DNA of 64,000 nucleotides from the NCBI GenBank assembly GCA_903884455.1, contig CAISEW010000031.1, forward strand, positions 1 to 64,000, in the 5' to 3' direction. The DNA comes from an uncultured Chloroflexota bacterium. GTDB lineage: Bacteria > Chloroflexota > Dehalococcoidia > GIF9 > AB-539-J10. Made by a program: the position numbers and the translations under genes. Positions 56,291 through 63,305 of this stretch are shown here, piece after piece (position 1 is the stretch's first letter; each line of letters starts with the position of its first letter). A model generated the notes under the pieces. It was not told the DNA's origin, ran no database searches, and worked only from the letters and a program-made list of their open reading frames with translations.

Positions 56291-56713
56291 TTAAGCCGTC
56301 CCCCTAGGTTTGCGCCTTCTTCTTTCTGCTACTTTTAACCTGGCTAGGGAGCGACGTAAAGCTGCCTCAGCAGCAGCATCTACCCCAGGTGGTCGTTCTT
56401 TCAAAGTTGCCTCAGCACGACGCTTGGCAGCTTCAGCACGAGCGACATCAATCTCTTCAGCACGTTCAGAGGCATCAGCCAAGATGATTACCTTGTCCGG
56501 ACGCACCTCAAGAAAACCGCCACTGATCGCTAGGTATTCCTCTTCATTATCTTTTTTTATAAGCAGGTCTCCAGGCTGTAGCATGGTCATCAAAGGAGCA
56601 TGATGAGGGAGAATGCCTAATTGCCCCTCCATTCCCCAGGCAACAACCTCGTTAACATCATCGGCAAAAACCATCCTCTCAGCCGTAACAACTTCCAATC
56701 TGAATGTAGCCAT
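56291..56713 (-). CDS. atpC: F1 ATP synthase subunit epsilon
   Basis: [42 protein letters not shown]. Confidence 0.95.
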
Positions 56714-56735
56714 TATTTGACCCTCATTATCACCC

Positions 56736-58142
<1,407 letters not shown>

Positions 58143-58205
58143 CTACCTCGTTAGATAAAGTGATGAATGGCGAGGGTTTCTTTATTAAACCATATAGACC
58201 GTAAC

Positions 58206-59063
58206 TCAAACTAAAGCCTCAGCTCCTCCGCTAATATCACAGATCTCCTTGGTAATCATCTCCTGTCGGACTTTATGCAATGCCAACGTCAGGTCCTCAA
58301 TAAGCTCCTTAGCATTATCGCTGGCATTACGCATAGCCACCATGCGCGCCGATTGCTCACTGGCAACAAGCTCAAGTATAGCATGGTATACCTTCATCTC
58401 CACATACCTTGGCAGTAGCTCGCCCAAAACAGCACTGGGGTCAGGTTCATAAATGTATTCTGCCACTTGGACTCGAGGCAGCACGGCTGGCTCAATGGGA
58501 AGCAATACCTCCATTGCAGGTCGTTGAATCATAGTGGTGATGAAACGGGGATAGGCAAGATACACCAAGTCAACCCCACCATTGCTGTAGTCATCGATAA
58601 CCACCCGTGAAATAGGCAGGGTTTCTAGTAAACTAGGTCGGTCGCTGATTCCCGTGAACTCAGCACGGAGATTACGCTGGGCACTGCGTGCGAAAGTTCG
58701 CCCCTTACGACCCATGGTAACGAGGGTAACAGGCACAGTTTGCCCCAGAATAAAGCCTGCAACAAGGCGATTCTGATTAGCATTTAACCCGCCACATAGC
58801 CCACGATCGGTAGTCATGTGGATTATAGCGATCTTCTGGACCTCACGCTTCTGTAGCAAGGGGTGAACTTTACCACCGGCTTGAGCTTCAACAGCAAGGT
58901 CAGACACAACTTTGCTTATTTCCTCAGCATAGGGCCGCCCGGCTATCGCCTGCTCTTGAGCTCGCCTCATCTTGGCAGTGGCAATCATCTCCATAGCCTT
59001 GCAAATCTTGGCGGTGCCCTGAACACTGCGTATCCGCCGACGAAGAATTTGGGTACTGACCAT
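58206..59063 (-). CDS. atpG: F1 ATP synthase subunit gamma
   Basis: LRRRIRSVQGTAKICKAMEMIATAKMRRAQ; ITTDRGLCGG-like MTTDRGLCGGLNANQ; C-terminal RQEMITKEICDISGGAEAL. Confidence 0.96.
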   Translation of the reverse strand: MVSTQILRRRIRSVQGTAKICKAMEMIATAKMRRAQEQAIAGRPYAEEISKVVSDLAVEAQAGGKVHPLLQKREVQKIAIIHMTTDRGLCGGLNANQNRLVAGFILGQTVPVTLVTMGRKGRTFARSAQRNLRAEFTGISDRPSLLETLPISRVVIDDYSNGGVDLVYLAYPRFITTMIQRPAMEVLLPIEPAVLPRVQVAEYIYEPDPSAVLGELLPRYVEMKVYHAILELVASEQSARMVAMRNASDNAKELIEDLTLALHKVRQEMITKEICDISGGAEALV

Positions 59064-59088
59064 TAGCCGAAAGCCTTCAGCTGACAGC

Positions 59089-60594
59089 TCACAGCTGCTC
59101 CTTGAACTCTTTAATTGCTGCTTTCAGAGCTTCCTCAGTCTCAGGCTTCGTCTCCTTATCATCGTTAATCTTTTGTTCTAATTCGGGATGATTAGTCTCC
59201 ATAAATCTATGAAAGTTTCCCTCCCAGGCAATGACTTTATCTACAGGCACATCGTCAAGATAGCCATTGGTCGCAGCATAAAGAATCATTACTTCCTTCC
59301 CCAAAGACATAGGAGAATATTGTGGTTGCTTCAGCACTTCAGTGATACGCCTGCCCCGCTCTAACTGGTCCCTGGTCGCCTTATCCAGGTCAGTAGCACC
59401 AAACTGGGCAAAAGCTTGAAGCTCACGGAATTGAGCTAGTTCTAGCCGTAATCTGCCAGCCACCTGCCTCATGGCCTTGCGCTGAGCAGCAGCGCCAACC
59501 CGGGATACTGACAACCCCACATTTATCGCAGGACGAATCCCGGCATTAAATAAGTCCGTCTCCAGATAAATTTGTCCATCGGTAATGGAAATCACATTTG
59601 TAGGGATATAGGCTGACATATCTCCAGCTTGAGTCTCAATAATAGGCAAGGCGGTAAGCGAGCCACCACCATACTCAGGGGCTAACTTAGCCGCCCTTTC
59701 CAGAAGCCGACTATGCAAATAGAAAACATCTCCCGGATAGGCTTCCCTGCCTGGTGGACGGCGGAGTAGCAGGGAGAGCTGGCGATAAGCCCAGGCATGC
59801 TTATAAAGGTCATCATAAACAATCAGGGCATCCTTTCCCTGTTCCATGAACTCTTCACCCATAGCACAACCAGCATAAGGGGCGAGATATTGCAAGGGAG
59901 CAGGGTCGGAAGCGTCGGCAGCTACTACGATAGTATGCTCCATAGCTCCATACTTCTCCAGAATAGCTACCACCTGAGCTACCTTGGATGTTTTTTGCCC
60001 AATGGCAACATAGATGCAAATAAGGTCACCACCTTTTTGGGCGATTATGGTATCGATAGGAATAGCCGATTTGCCCGTAAAGCGGTCACCAATGATAAGC
60101 TCACGCTGTCCTCGCCCAATAGGAATTATGCTATCTATAGCCTTAATGCCTGTCATCACCGGTGTATCTACCGGCCTTCTTTTTGTTACGTCTGGCGCCA
60201 CTATTTCTACGGGACGGTTTTTCTCTGCTTTAATTGGCCCCTTGCCATCCCGGGGACGTCCCAGAGGATCAACTACCCTGCCAATAAGGCTATCGCCTAC
60301 TGGAACCTCAACCACCGTCCCTGTTGCCTTCACCTCATCCCCTTCCTTAATCTGGCTGCAATCACCAAGGATAACAGCACCAACATTATCCTCTTCCAGG
60401 TTCAGCGCCAGACCCATGATATCGTGGGGGAATTGCAGCAATTCGTTGTAAGCTGCGTTTCCCAGCCCATGGATGCGGGCGATGCCATCGCCTACCTCTA
60501 CTACCGTGCCCACATTGGCCACAGCTACAGCAGCGCCAAAATGCTCGATTTGCTCTTTAATTACGGAAACAATATCTCGATCTCGAGCTGCCAT
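59089..60594 (-). CDS. atpA: F1 ATP synthase subunit alpha
   Basis: [68 protein letters not shown]. Confidence 0.97.
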
Positions 60595-60612
60595 TTAGCC
60601 TCCTGAAATGCC

Positions 60613-61152
60613 TTACCTGCTAATTTCCACCAAGCTCTTCCTTAAAGCCCCCAGCTTGTTTTTCACGCTCCCGTCAATAAGTGTATCACCAATTCTGGCT
60701 TTAATCCCGCCAACTATGGAGGGATCGACCTGAGCATCAATTACAACCTTATGCCCGGTTATCGCCTCAAACCGACTGGAAATCCTCTTCCTACCCTCAT
60801 CATCCAATGGCAAAGCAGTAATTACTTCAACATGTTCAATGCCATAGTGAGTATCCAGCAACCTGTCATACTGCTGTGAAATATCACCAGCAATGCCTAA
60901 TCTATCTTTGTGCACCAATAAATAAGCCAGATTTAGGGCCAAAGGGTTTATTTTTCCTAACAATTCCGCCAAAAGGGTTTTCTTGGTCTCGAAAGACAAT
61001 TTAGGATGTTCCAATAAAGCTACCAGCTTTTCATCTGTAGTTATGTCAGCTATTTTCCTCAAGCTTGCTTGCCAGCTGTCTAACTCTCCCTTCTCCAGAG
61101 CTAGCCTGAACGCAGCTTGAGCATAGCGTTTACCAGAAGTCACTCTTGCCAT
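60613..61152 (-). CDS. atpH: F1 ATP synthase subunit delta
   Basis: RYAQAAFRLALEKGELDSW; C-terminal VDPSIVGGIKARIGDTLIDGSVKNKLGALRKSL. Confidence 0.95.
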   Translation of the reverse strand: MARVTSGKRYAQAAFRLALEKGELDSWQASLRKIADITTDEKLVALLEHPKLSFETKKTLLAELLGKINPLALNLAYLLVHKDRLGIAGDISQQYDRLLDTHYGIEHVEVITALPLDDEGRKRISSRFEAITGHKVVIDAQVDPSIVGGIKARIGDTLIDGSVKNKLGALRKSLVEISR

Positions 61153-61175
61153 TTTACGGACATGTTACCGCGAGG

Positions 61176-61685
61176 CTAATTCTCTCTGAAAGTGGCACTT
61201 TCTTCTAGAGCTTCCTCGATAAGCTTGCGATGTCTTTCTTTATCTAAGGTCTCCATAATTACTTTCTCAGCAGCCGAAATGGAAATATCCACAAATTCTC
61301 GGCGCAGGTCATCAATAATCCTATCGCGCTCCCCTTCTAATTCAGCCCGGGTTCGGTCAACGATAACTTGCGCTTCTTTTCTTGCTCCCTCCCTTGCTTC
61401 CTCCCTAAGCCTTTCTCCTGTTTGGGTAGCTTGATTAACTAAAGCTTGTCCATCATCGCGTGCCTTGCTAATCAGCTTCTTAACCTCTTCCTCGGCATGG
61501 GCATACTCCTCCTTTGTGGCTTCAGCCTGCTCCATACCCTCTTTTATCCTTTTGGACCTCTCGTCAAGCATTTTCATCACCGGTTTATATAGAAACAAAC
61601 CCAGCAGGGCAAACAGGATGACAAAACTTATAATAAAAGATATCAGCAAGGGTAAATTAATACCTAGCTTAGCAAAACCTCCCAT
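61176..61685 (-). CDS. atpF: Fo ATP synthase subunit b
   Basis: N-terminal TM, KPVMKMLDERSKRIKEGMEQAEATKEEYAHAEEE, long coiled coil. Confidence 0.95.
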   Translation of the reverse strand: MGGFAKLGINLPLLISFIISFVILFALLGLFLYKPVMKMLDERSKRIKEGMEQAEATKEEYAHAEEEVKKLISKARDDGQALVNQATQTGERLREEAREGARKEAQVIVDRTRAELEGERDRIIDDLRREFVDISISAAEKVIMETLDKERHRKLIEEALEESATFREN

Positions 61686-61722
61686 TTTGCCCTCCTAACT
61701 ACATATCATTTTTAGTGGCAGA

Positions 61723-61836
61723 CTAACCTGCCGACAGTAAGAATAAACCAATTGTGACTGCCGCTACAAGAAATACCCCCAACACCGCCGCACCAATGAT
61801 TATTGCTAATCCAATAGGAAAATCACCGTCTTTCAT
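61723..61836 (-). CDS. Unannotated 37-aa single-TM protein between atpE and atpF
   Basis: Not in ORF track. Minus strand ATG at 61836, AAGGAGTGTGAATT RBS; MKDGDFPIGLAIIIGAAVLGVFLVAAVTIGLFLLSAG*. Confidence 0.6.
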   Translation of the reverse strand: MKDGDFPIGLAIIIGAAVLGVFLVAAVTIGLFLLSAG

Positions 61837-61860
61837 AATTCACACTCCTTCTAAACGATA

Positions 61861-62094
61861 CTACCCCACCACCATAGCCAGGATGATAGCCACTATCAAA
61901 GCATATATCCCGATAGCTTCGCATAAGGCGCCAATCAAAATCATATTGGTCAAGATAGGACCTCGCGCCTCAGGGTTACGCCCCAGGGATTGCATGGCCG
62001 AATAGCCGATAAGCCCCAGAGCTAGTGCAGGTCCCAAGAAGCCCAGGCCTGCAACCAATCCTACTGCTAGCATTTTCATTACTTCTGGCGTCAT
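61861..62094 (-). CDS. atpE: Fo ATP synthase subunit c
   Basis: LGFLGPALALGLIGYSAMQSLGRNPEARGPILTNMILIGALCEAIGIYALIVAIIL; hairpin with RNPEA loop and ion-binding Glu. Confidence 0.97.
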   Translation of the reverse strand: MTPEVMKMLAVGLVAGLGFLGPALALGLIGYSAMQSLGRNPEARGPILTNMILIGALCEAIGIYALIVAIILAMVVG

Positions 62095-62119
62095 TTATTT
62101 CCTCCTTTCAACTTTATTC

Positions 62120-63064
62120 TCACTCCTCATGCATAGGAGCTACAGCAATGGTGCCAAACACCAAAGTTAAACCGGCAAAGATAAGAGCCTGGATAAAGCC
62201 GATAAGTAATTCTAACCCATAGAAGGGGATAGTGAAAATGAGAGGAATAAGGAAAGCAGAAACCAACAGCAACATCTCACCGGCAGTCATGTTGCCGAAA
62301 AGACGGAAGGTAAAGCTGATGATGCGTATTAGATGACTGAATATCTCTAACATGCCGACAAACAGGTTAATAAATCCAAAAGCAATGTTGGTGATAGCCG
62401 GGCGTATCTTCCCCATGAACAGTTCTTTGACACCTCGCCCTATCTGACCAAAATTAAAGAACTCCCCGAGGTAACGAAAGGTACCCAGGGATTTCATACC
62501 CCAAAACTCAACGAAGATAAAGGACATTACAGCGATGGACAGAGGCACATTAATATCAGTATTGGCTGACCGAAACAGAGGCACAGCGGTACCTTCCTGC
62601 CCGGTGACTACTATGGTGCCAAAGAAGGGCAACAGGGCCAGGTAGGCATTGGTTATCACATAGATAAAAATGGTGGCTACTACTGGAAAAAGCAGCCTCG
62701 CATGTTTTTCGCCAGCAACACTCTTAACGAAGCTTAGCAACGCCTCTACTGCCATTTCGGCTAAATTTTGCAGCTTCCCCGGAATAAGTTTCATTTTGCG
62801 GGTACAGACATAGAATAGGACCGCCAGCACGATAATACTAAGCCACGCGGCAATGAGAGTGTTGGTGATGGGAAAGCCAGCGACCTCAAACAGTCTTTCC
62901 GAGGGAAGCGCAATATGGGGTTTGGGGACAGCCAGGAAACTGGGAACTTTGATGCCAAAAAAACCAGCACCCAGAGGGCCAAAAACGAAGCCAACAGCGA
63001 ACAAAGCTAAAATAATGACAAGAGAGAAAACTATGATTTTTGTGGCACAACCCAGCTTTGGCAC
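62120..63064 (-). CDS. atpB: Fo ATP synthase subunit a
   Basis: IISFTFRLFGNMTAGEMLL; ELLIGFIQALIFAGLTLVF. Confidence 0.96.
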   Translation of the reverse strand: MPKLGCATKIIVFSLVIILALFAVGFVFGPLGAGFFGIKVPSFLAVPKPHIALPSERLFEVAGFPITNTLIAAWLSIIVLAVLFYVCTRKMKLIPGKLQNLAEMAVEALLSFVKSVAGEKHARLLFPVVATIFIYVITNAYLALLPFFGTIVVTGQEGTAVPLFRSANTDINVPLSIAVMSFIFVEFWGMKSLGTFRYLGEFFNFGQIGRGVKELFMGKIRPAITNIAFGFINLFVGMLEIFSHLIRIISFTFRLFGNMTAGEMLLLVSAFLIPLIFTIPFYGLELLIGFIQALIFAGLTLVFGTIAVAPMHEE

Positions 63065-63068
63065 TGTT

Positions 63069-63305
63069 TTATCTCTTGTCTTTGTTTAATTCGTTCTGCT
63101 CAGCCTTATACCGGCGAAGCATACGAACTAGACCATAAAATGCAATAACCGTCCCTATGCCCAGACCGATAAGGGTGAACAAAGGGGCTTTATCAAACTT
63201 AGGATCAAGCCAAAAATGGCCAAGCAAAGTTGGGACGAGCAGACTCACAACCATATACCAACCTATAGTAAGTAAGAATCGAAGCGGTCCTGCCCACTCT
63301 TTCAC
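63069..63305 (-). CDS. atpI: AtpI/ATPase gene 1-like protein (78 aa, two TM)
   Basis: TIGWYMVVSLLVPTLLGHFWLDPKFDKAPLFTLIGLGIGTVIAFYGLVRMLRRY; directly upstream of atpB. Confidence 0.8.
   Translation of the reverse strand: MKEWAGPLRFLLTIGWYMVVSLLVPTLLGHFWLDPKFDKAPLFTLIGLGIGTVIAFYGLVRMLRRYKAEQNELNKDKR

Follow-up and report, generated by a model that had tools for sequence, protein, structure and literature searches.

A small membrane-protein gene between the c- and b-subunit genes of an F-type ATP synthase operon in Dehalococcoidia

The bacterial ATP synthase is widely regarded as a fixed eight-subunit machine. In the DNA analyzed here (a 64,000-nucleotide stretch from an uncultured Dehalococcoidia bacterium, hereafter the window), the operon for an F-type enzyme holds a further reading frame, referred to as SP, in the gap between the genes for subunits c and b. 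SP is a real gene, as judged from comparison with its relatives, and selection acts on its amino acids; it is likely a translated, selected single-pass microprotein of Fo in an F-type synthase lineage found mainly in Dehalococcoidia. The gene itself, its membership of the operon, its movement with the operon, and its co-occurrence with an aromatic residue at position 31 of subunit c (c31) are what sequence comparison establishes, and the best reading of these data is that SP would span the membrane once and be associated with the c-ring, as an Fo accessory or assembly protein. If a ninth Fo gene is conserved and horizontally co-transferred in dozens of Dehalococcoidia, then some parts of the core membrane motor are specific to particular lineages. 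Should this reading of SP be true, annotation misses such parts because of their small size.

The SP gene and its operon

The operon is complete (window positions 56291-63305) and has the order atpZ-a-c-SP-b-delta-alpha-gamma-beta-epsilon, with SP co-directional. The frames listed as atpA, atpG, atpD, and atpC are ones that we take to be these genes from knowledge of the sequences. The features are, in the direction of transcription:

63069 to 63305, minus strand: ATPase_gene1-type (AtpZ/AtpI-like) small membrane protein at the operon head (PF09527, E=2.5e-10)
62120 to 63064, minus strand: atpB, a subunit, start GTG or further upstream (PF00119, E=3.7e-34)
61861 to 62094, minus strand: atpE, c subunit, 77 aa, with ion site Glu59 (PF00137, E=7.5e-14)
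62002 to 62004, minus strand: codon of c-subunit Tyr31, the aromatic residue accompanying SP (c-subunit comparison)
61845 to 61850, minus strand: Shine-Dalgarno sequence AAGGAG of SP, 8 nt 5′ of the ATG (sequence)
61723 to 61836, minus strand: SP, gene for a 37-aa single-pass membrane microprotein (ORF, conserved family, codon test, predicted helix)
61176 to 61685, minus strand: atpF, b subunit (PF00430, E=1e-26)
60613 to 61152, minus strand: atpH, delta subunit (PF00213, E=1.3e-46)
59089 to 60594, minus strand: atpA, alpha subunit (ORF)
58206 to 59063, minus strand: atpG, gamma subunit (ORF)
56736 to 58142, minus strand: atpD, beta subunit, stop-to-stop frame (ORF)
56291 to 56746, minus strand: atpC, epsilon subunit, stop-to-stop frame (ORF)

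The SP frame runs from an ATG through 37 codons to a stop and gives the product MKDGDFPIGLAIIIGAAVLGVFLVAAVTIGLFLLSAG. The original prediction had described a 37-aa ORF with its own AAGGAG and a clean start and stop, lying in a 175-bp gap between the c and b genes. Its translation is exactly as quoted there, and the distance from the atpE stop to the atpF start, which SP occupies, measures 175 nt. By itself a 37-codon ORF is weak evidence, while with relatives compared the sequence evidence goes far beyond chance. SP has no matching family in Pfam, NCBIfam, or the PDB, the gap region has no RNA family match in Rfam, and no description of such a c-b gap gene was found in the literature searched. 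The c subunit of the window is without Na+-type Gln/Ser ligands, and the enzyme is therefore presumably of the proton type. Since the AtpZ/AtpI-like factor is retained at the operon head, SP appears to be an addition to the operon and not a replacement.

Conservation and codon-level selection

Operons were collected with the c subunit as seed, from relatives, genome contigs, and then class-wide genomes, and removal of duplicates left 180 distinct operons. An SP homologue, recognized by syntenic position, start codon, and resemblance at the N-terminus, is present in the c-b gap of 67 of these. The syntenic homologues share the short signature M-x(2-3)-G-[LI]-P followed by one transmembrane helix; the fuller consensus is M-[EGQ]-[DENQ]-x-G-[LI]-P-x-[SF]-[IL], again followed by a single hydrophobic helix, in proteins of 30-45 aa. 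Pro7 is kept in 65 of 66 homologues, and a Shine-Dalgarno-like motif precedes the gene in 64 of the 66 that are readable.

Conservation of the frame in relatives had been named in the original prediction as the comparison to make, with conservation of the gap as RNA instead of codons as the refuting alternative. The frame is conserved, with a strong synonymous bias: pN/pS is 0.19 in frame against 1.08 and 4.85 in the two shifted frames (nine disjoint ungapped close pairs). The mismatches fall 542, 281, and 1012 times on codon positions 1, 2, and 3, respectively (55 pairs), and in one pair of homologues (L062 and L064) all 18 nucleotide differences are silent, so that the two proteins are identical. 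The constraint thus lies at the codon level, and the RNA alternative finds no backing in Rfam. The length of the c-b gap varies across operons, and sister lineages without the ORF have a gap of 110-118 nt. The gaps of two further operons (L280 and L017) hold other hydrophobic small ORFs (MLVYLFGILVIAFAFVLTIVIIVLSSGTAETAG and MIEILQLIWLIVGVLIIVAIGASLGLALFFWLTKER, respectively) that do not match the SP profile; these may be cases where SP has been replaced or has strongly diverged.

Distribution and transfer of the operon

A profile built from 36 members matches 44 of 393 genomes of the class at E ≤ 0.001, of which at least one (in G221) is a chance match within a long ORF. Convincing matches are found in about 42 of the 393, across many families, and only two lie away from the atp operon. 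In a phylum sample of 400 the profile has no credible match outside Dehalococcoidia. Within Chloroflexota SP is confined to this class. Elsewhere it occurs in one Syntrophaceae-labelled clade, whose MAGs carry the label Syntrophaceae or Deltaproteobacteria; 6 of the 17 genomes of this family have it. Several lineages keep the synthase and are missing SP.

The Syntrophaceae-labelled MAGs (L061-L064, L066, and L314) combine a Dehalococcoidia-like atp operon and SP with an RpoB of about 1,500 aa that is non-Chloroflexota and unlike that of Dehalococcoidia. It is probable that the whole atp operon with SP moved across phyla in these cases. In a tree of subunits a, b, and delta, the window operon groups with these operons (support 99). 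An A/V-type ATPase subunit is present in 17 of the 19 other genomes of the window's genus and the window's c subunit in none, while no match to an A/V-type ATPase was obtained in the window's own genome. A contaminated contig is ruled out as an explanation, because the rpoB on the same contig (G000:C31) is 84-93% identical to those of genus-mates. Most likely, the F-type operon, SP included, was gained by horizontal transfer and took the place of the A/V-type enzyme; SP therefore travels with the synthase. Conservation across many Dehalococcoidia together with this movement suggests in turn that SP is probably an extra part or an assembly helper of the rotary motor.

The two homologues outside atp operons are located next to genes that are presumably nuoE, nuoF, and formate-dehydrogenase-like genes, as named from knowledge of the sequences. 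One (L312; G108:C101:9400-9507) has an FMN oxidoreductase-like gene on one side and nuoE on the other, all on the same strand; the other (L313; G317:C291:6-113) is divergent and lies beside nuoE/nuoF/formate-dehydrogenase-like genes. In both genomes c31 is aromatic; the c-b gap of G317 is without SP, and the G108 contig ends at c. These homologues may be relocated copies or a sign of a wider role, and they argue for caution regarding strict exclusivity of SP to the ATP synthase.

An aromatic residue in subunit c accompanies SP

Position c31 was first picked post hoc from a comparison of c subunits with and without SP; a separate set of 80 operons then served as an independent test. In the first set, all 44 operons with SP have Tyr or Phe at c31, as do 7 of 55 without. 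The corresponding numbers in the independent set are 22 of 22 readable operons and 14 of 56 (Fisher 3e-9, with one truncated sequence counted as non-aromatic). Taken together, c31 is Tyr or Phe in all 66 SP-bearing operons with a readable site as opposed to about a fifth of those lacking SP. Because relatives are not independent, the association was also assessed on independent pairs on a 175-row tree: of 10 phylogenetically independent contrasts, 6.1 on average go in the expected direction and none in the opposite one (median p about 0.03). A clear frequency difference is seen at 76 columns of a, b, and c, and the top-ranking one is c31, with a269, a81, and a267 next. Columns a72, a81, a267-270, and c73 also associate with SP on independent pairs; those of subunit a would fit a site for SP outside the ring near a.

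The association is one-sided, as 22 operons have an aromatic c31 and no SP in the gap, and an aromatic c31 seems to be necessary but not sufficient for SP. That SP is hidden elsewhere in such genomes was ruled out as a general explanation, with only G317 and G108 of 19 having one. The pore of the spinach c-ring is lined by c residues 7, 11, 15, and 19 (PMC6897951). Position c31 is equivalent to spinach 33; on a helical wheel its direction deviates by 20 degrees from that of the pore-lining residues, and it is located close to the cytoplasmic end of the inner helix. This helical-wheel mapping, as distinct from a structure, would assign c31 to the inner ring wall.

Predicted topology and possible roles of SP

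AlphaFold2 (29 homologues) predicts SP to be one helix spanning residues 8-36 (pLDDT 92.6). Of 66 homologues, 59 are net acidic over residues 2-6 and 65 have a helix free of charged residues; the C-terminal end is neutral or slightly basic. According to the positive-inside rule, which is established knowledge, the acidic N-terminus implies that this end should face outward. Small residues along the helix recur every 5.0 residues and not every 3.6 (permutation p 0.0005; 66-sequence alignment), a spacing that does not correspond to a simple helix face.

Three roles had been proposed at the outset, i.e., accessory Fo subunit, assembly factor, and c-ring-associated protein. The frame, synteny, co-transfer, and c31 uphold a genuine small protein linked to the synthase, while none of the three is singled out. 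In the mechanism that we consider most likely, the N-terminus, acidic and with the residues E/D/Q/N, G, L/I, and P, would be outside and the C-terminus, which is short and neutral, inside, with Pro7 capping the single helix of about 29 residues. The helix would pack against the c-ring, probably from the lumen side, where c31 points, and SP in the lumen might then permanently plug or stabilize the rotor ring, or serve as a scaffold while the c-ring assembles. In its specific form, a dedicated lumen plug or scaffold whose helix packs on the ring of Tyr/Phe31 and either co-rotates or templates assembly, this is a tentative proposal. To our knowledge, a protein within the pore of a bacterial F-type rotor has not been described before.

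It is quite possible, without being probable, that SP acts transiently, for example in c-ring formation, as an assembly or insertion factor that is absent from the finished enzyme. This is in keeping with the loss of SP from lineages that retain their synthase, although SP operons already have an AtpZ/AtpI-like gene. Moreover, an assembly role has been ascribed to small hydrophobic atp-operon genes (Atp1/UncI) in PMC9806626. We find it rather unlikely that SP is a stator-side peptide that, like mitochondrial subunit 8, lies outside the ring against subunit a and the helices of b and stabilizes the a/c interface. Adjacency of the SP and b genes, the associated columns in a and c73, and the single-pass topology shared with b and subunit 8 all point that way, but the strongest covarying site, c31, maps to the inner ring wall, out of subunit a's reach, and SP is without profile similarity to b, a, or c.

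That SP is a general membrane microprotein occupying a convenient gap, with no specific tie to the ATP synthase, is improbable. The homologues in G108 and G317 speak for it, but all other convincing matches in the class sit in the c-b gap, SP moved with the operon into other lineages, and the c31 association includes G108 and G317 themselves. It is hardly credible that the ORF is a non-functional spacer, a leader peptide, or an RNA element setting b translation relative to c: the c-b gap is where expression is tuned and sister lineages manage with an ORF-less gap, but the amino-acid constraint (including the pair with silent changes only), the Rfam result, and the highly variable gap length weigh against it.

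Comparison with known proteins

With respect to position, SP has a counterpart in the b′ gene (atpG/atpX of phototrophs), which likewise sits between c and b and encodes a single transmembrane helix with the N-terminus outside; SP is without the cytoplasmic stalk, its predicted helix ending at residue 36 of 37. The possibility that SP is a b′ remnant (an NLP.LI motif occurs in both) was ruled out, as profile comparison with b, c, and a was negative; against the N-terminal transmembrane segment of b, hhalign gave a probability of 1.1% over 9 columns. SP as a subunit c was rejected on the basis of the single predicted helix, the lack of internal charge in 65 of 66 homologues, and a negative hhalign result with both c helices. 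Mitochondrial subunit 8 can be likened to SP by its single-pass topology; SP is without any Pfam match. The rotor rings of V-ATPases contain transmembrane helices of Voa1 and ATP6AP1/ATP6AP2. These represent a foreign helix within a rotor ring, as tentatively proposed for SP, but by analogy only, being much larger proteins in another ATPase class.

AtpI/UncI and AtpZ (ATPase_gene1) resemble SP in being short, hydrophobic, encoded in the atp operon, and outside the eight core subunits, and AtpI/UncI acts in c-ring assembly. However, they are located at the operon head and belong to another family (PF09527), whereas SP is single-pass, half as long, and encoded between c and b; it does not match the AtpZ/AtpI model PF09527 in Pfam/NCBIfam. 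The N-type ATPase operon also carries extra genes, AtpQ and AtpR, with AtpQ a putative membrane protein (PMC5376962). In that operon atpD and atpC precede atpB, while the SP operon keeps the F-type order; the sequences were compared via Pfam/NCBIfam only. A parallel from a different complex is the 36-aa CcoM, described in PMC10433244 as a small single-transmembrane subunit of a respiratory complex that annotation had overlooked. Compared by description, it is like SP in size and in having escaped annotation.

A lipoprotein-type b subunit was considered as a substitute for SP and ruled out, as both coexist in two operons (L075 and L103). In the Dehalococcoidia clade concerned (L075, L103, L088, L130, L202, L221, L242, and L273), the b subunit has an N-terminal signal peptide and a lipobox, e.g., MRYRIGLAALLIMLTVLLSSC, which suggests that b is lipid-anchored in these bacteria.
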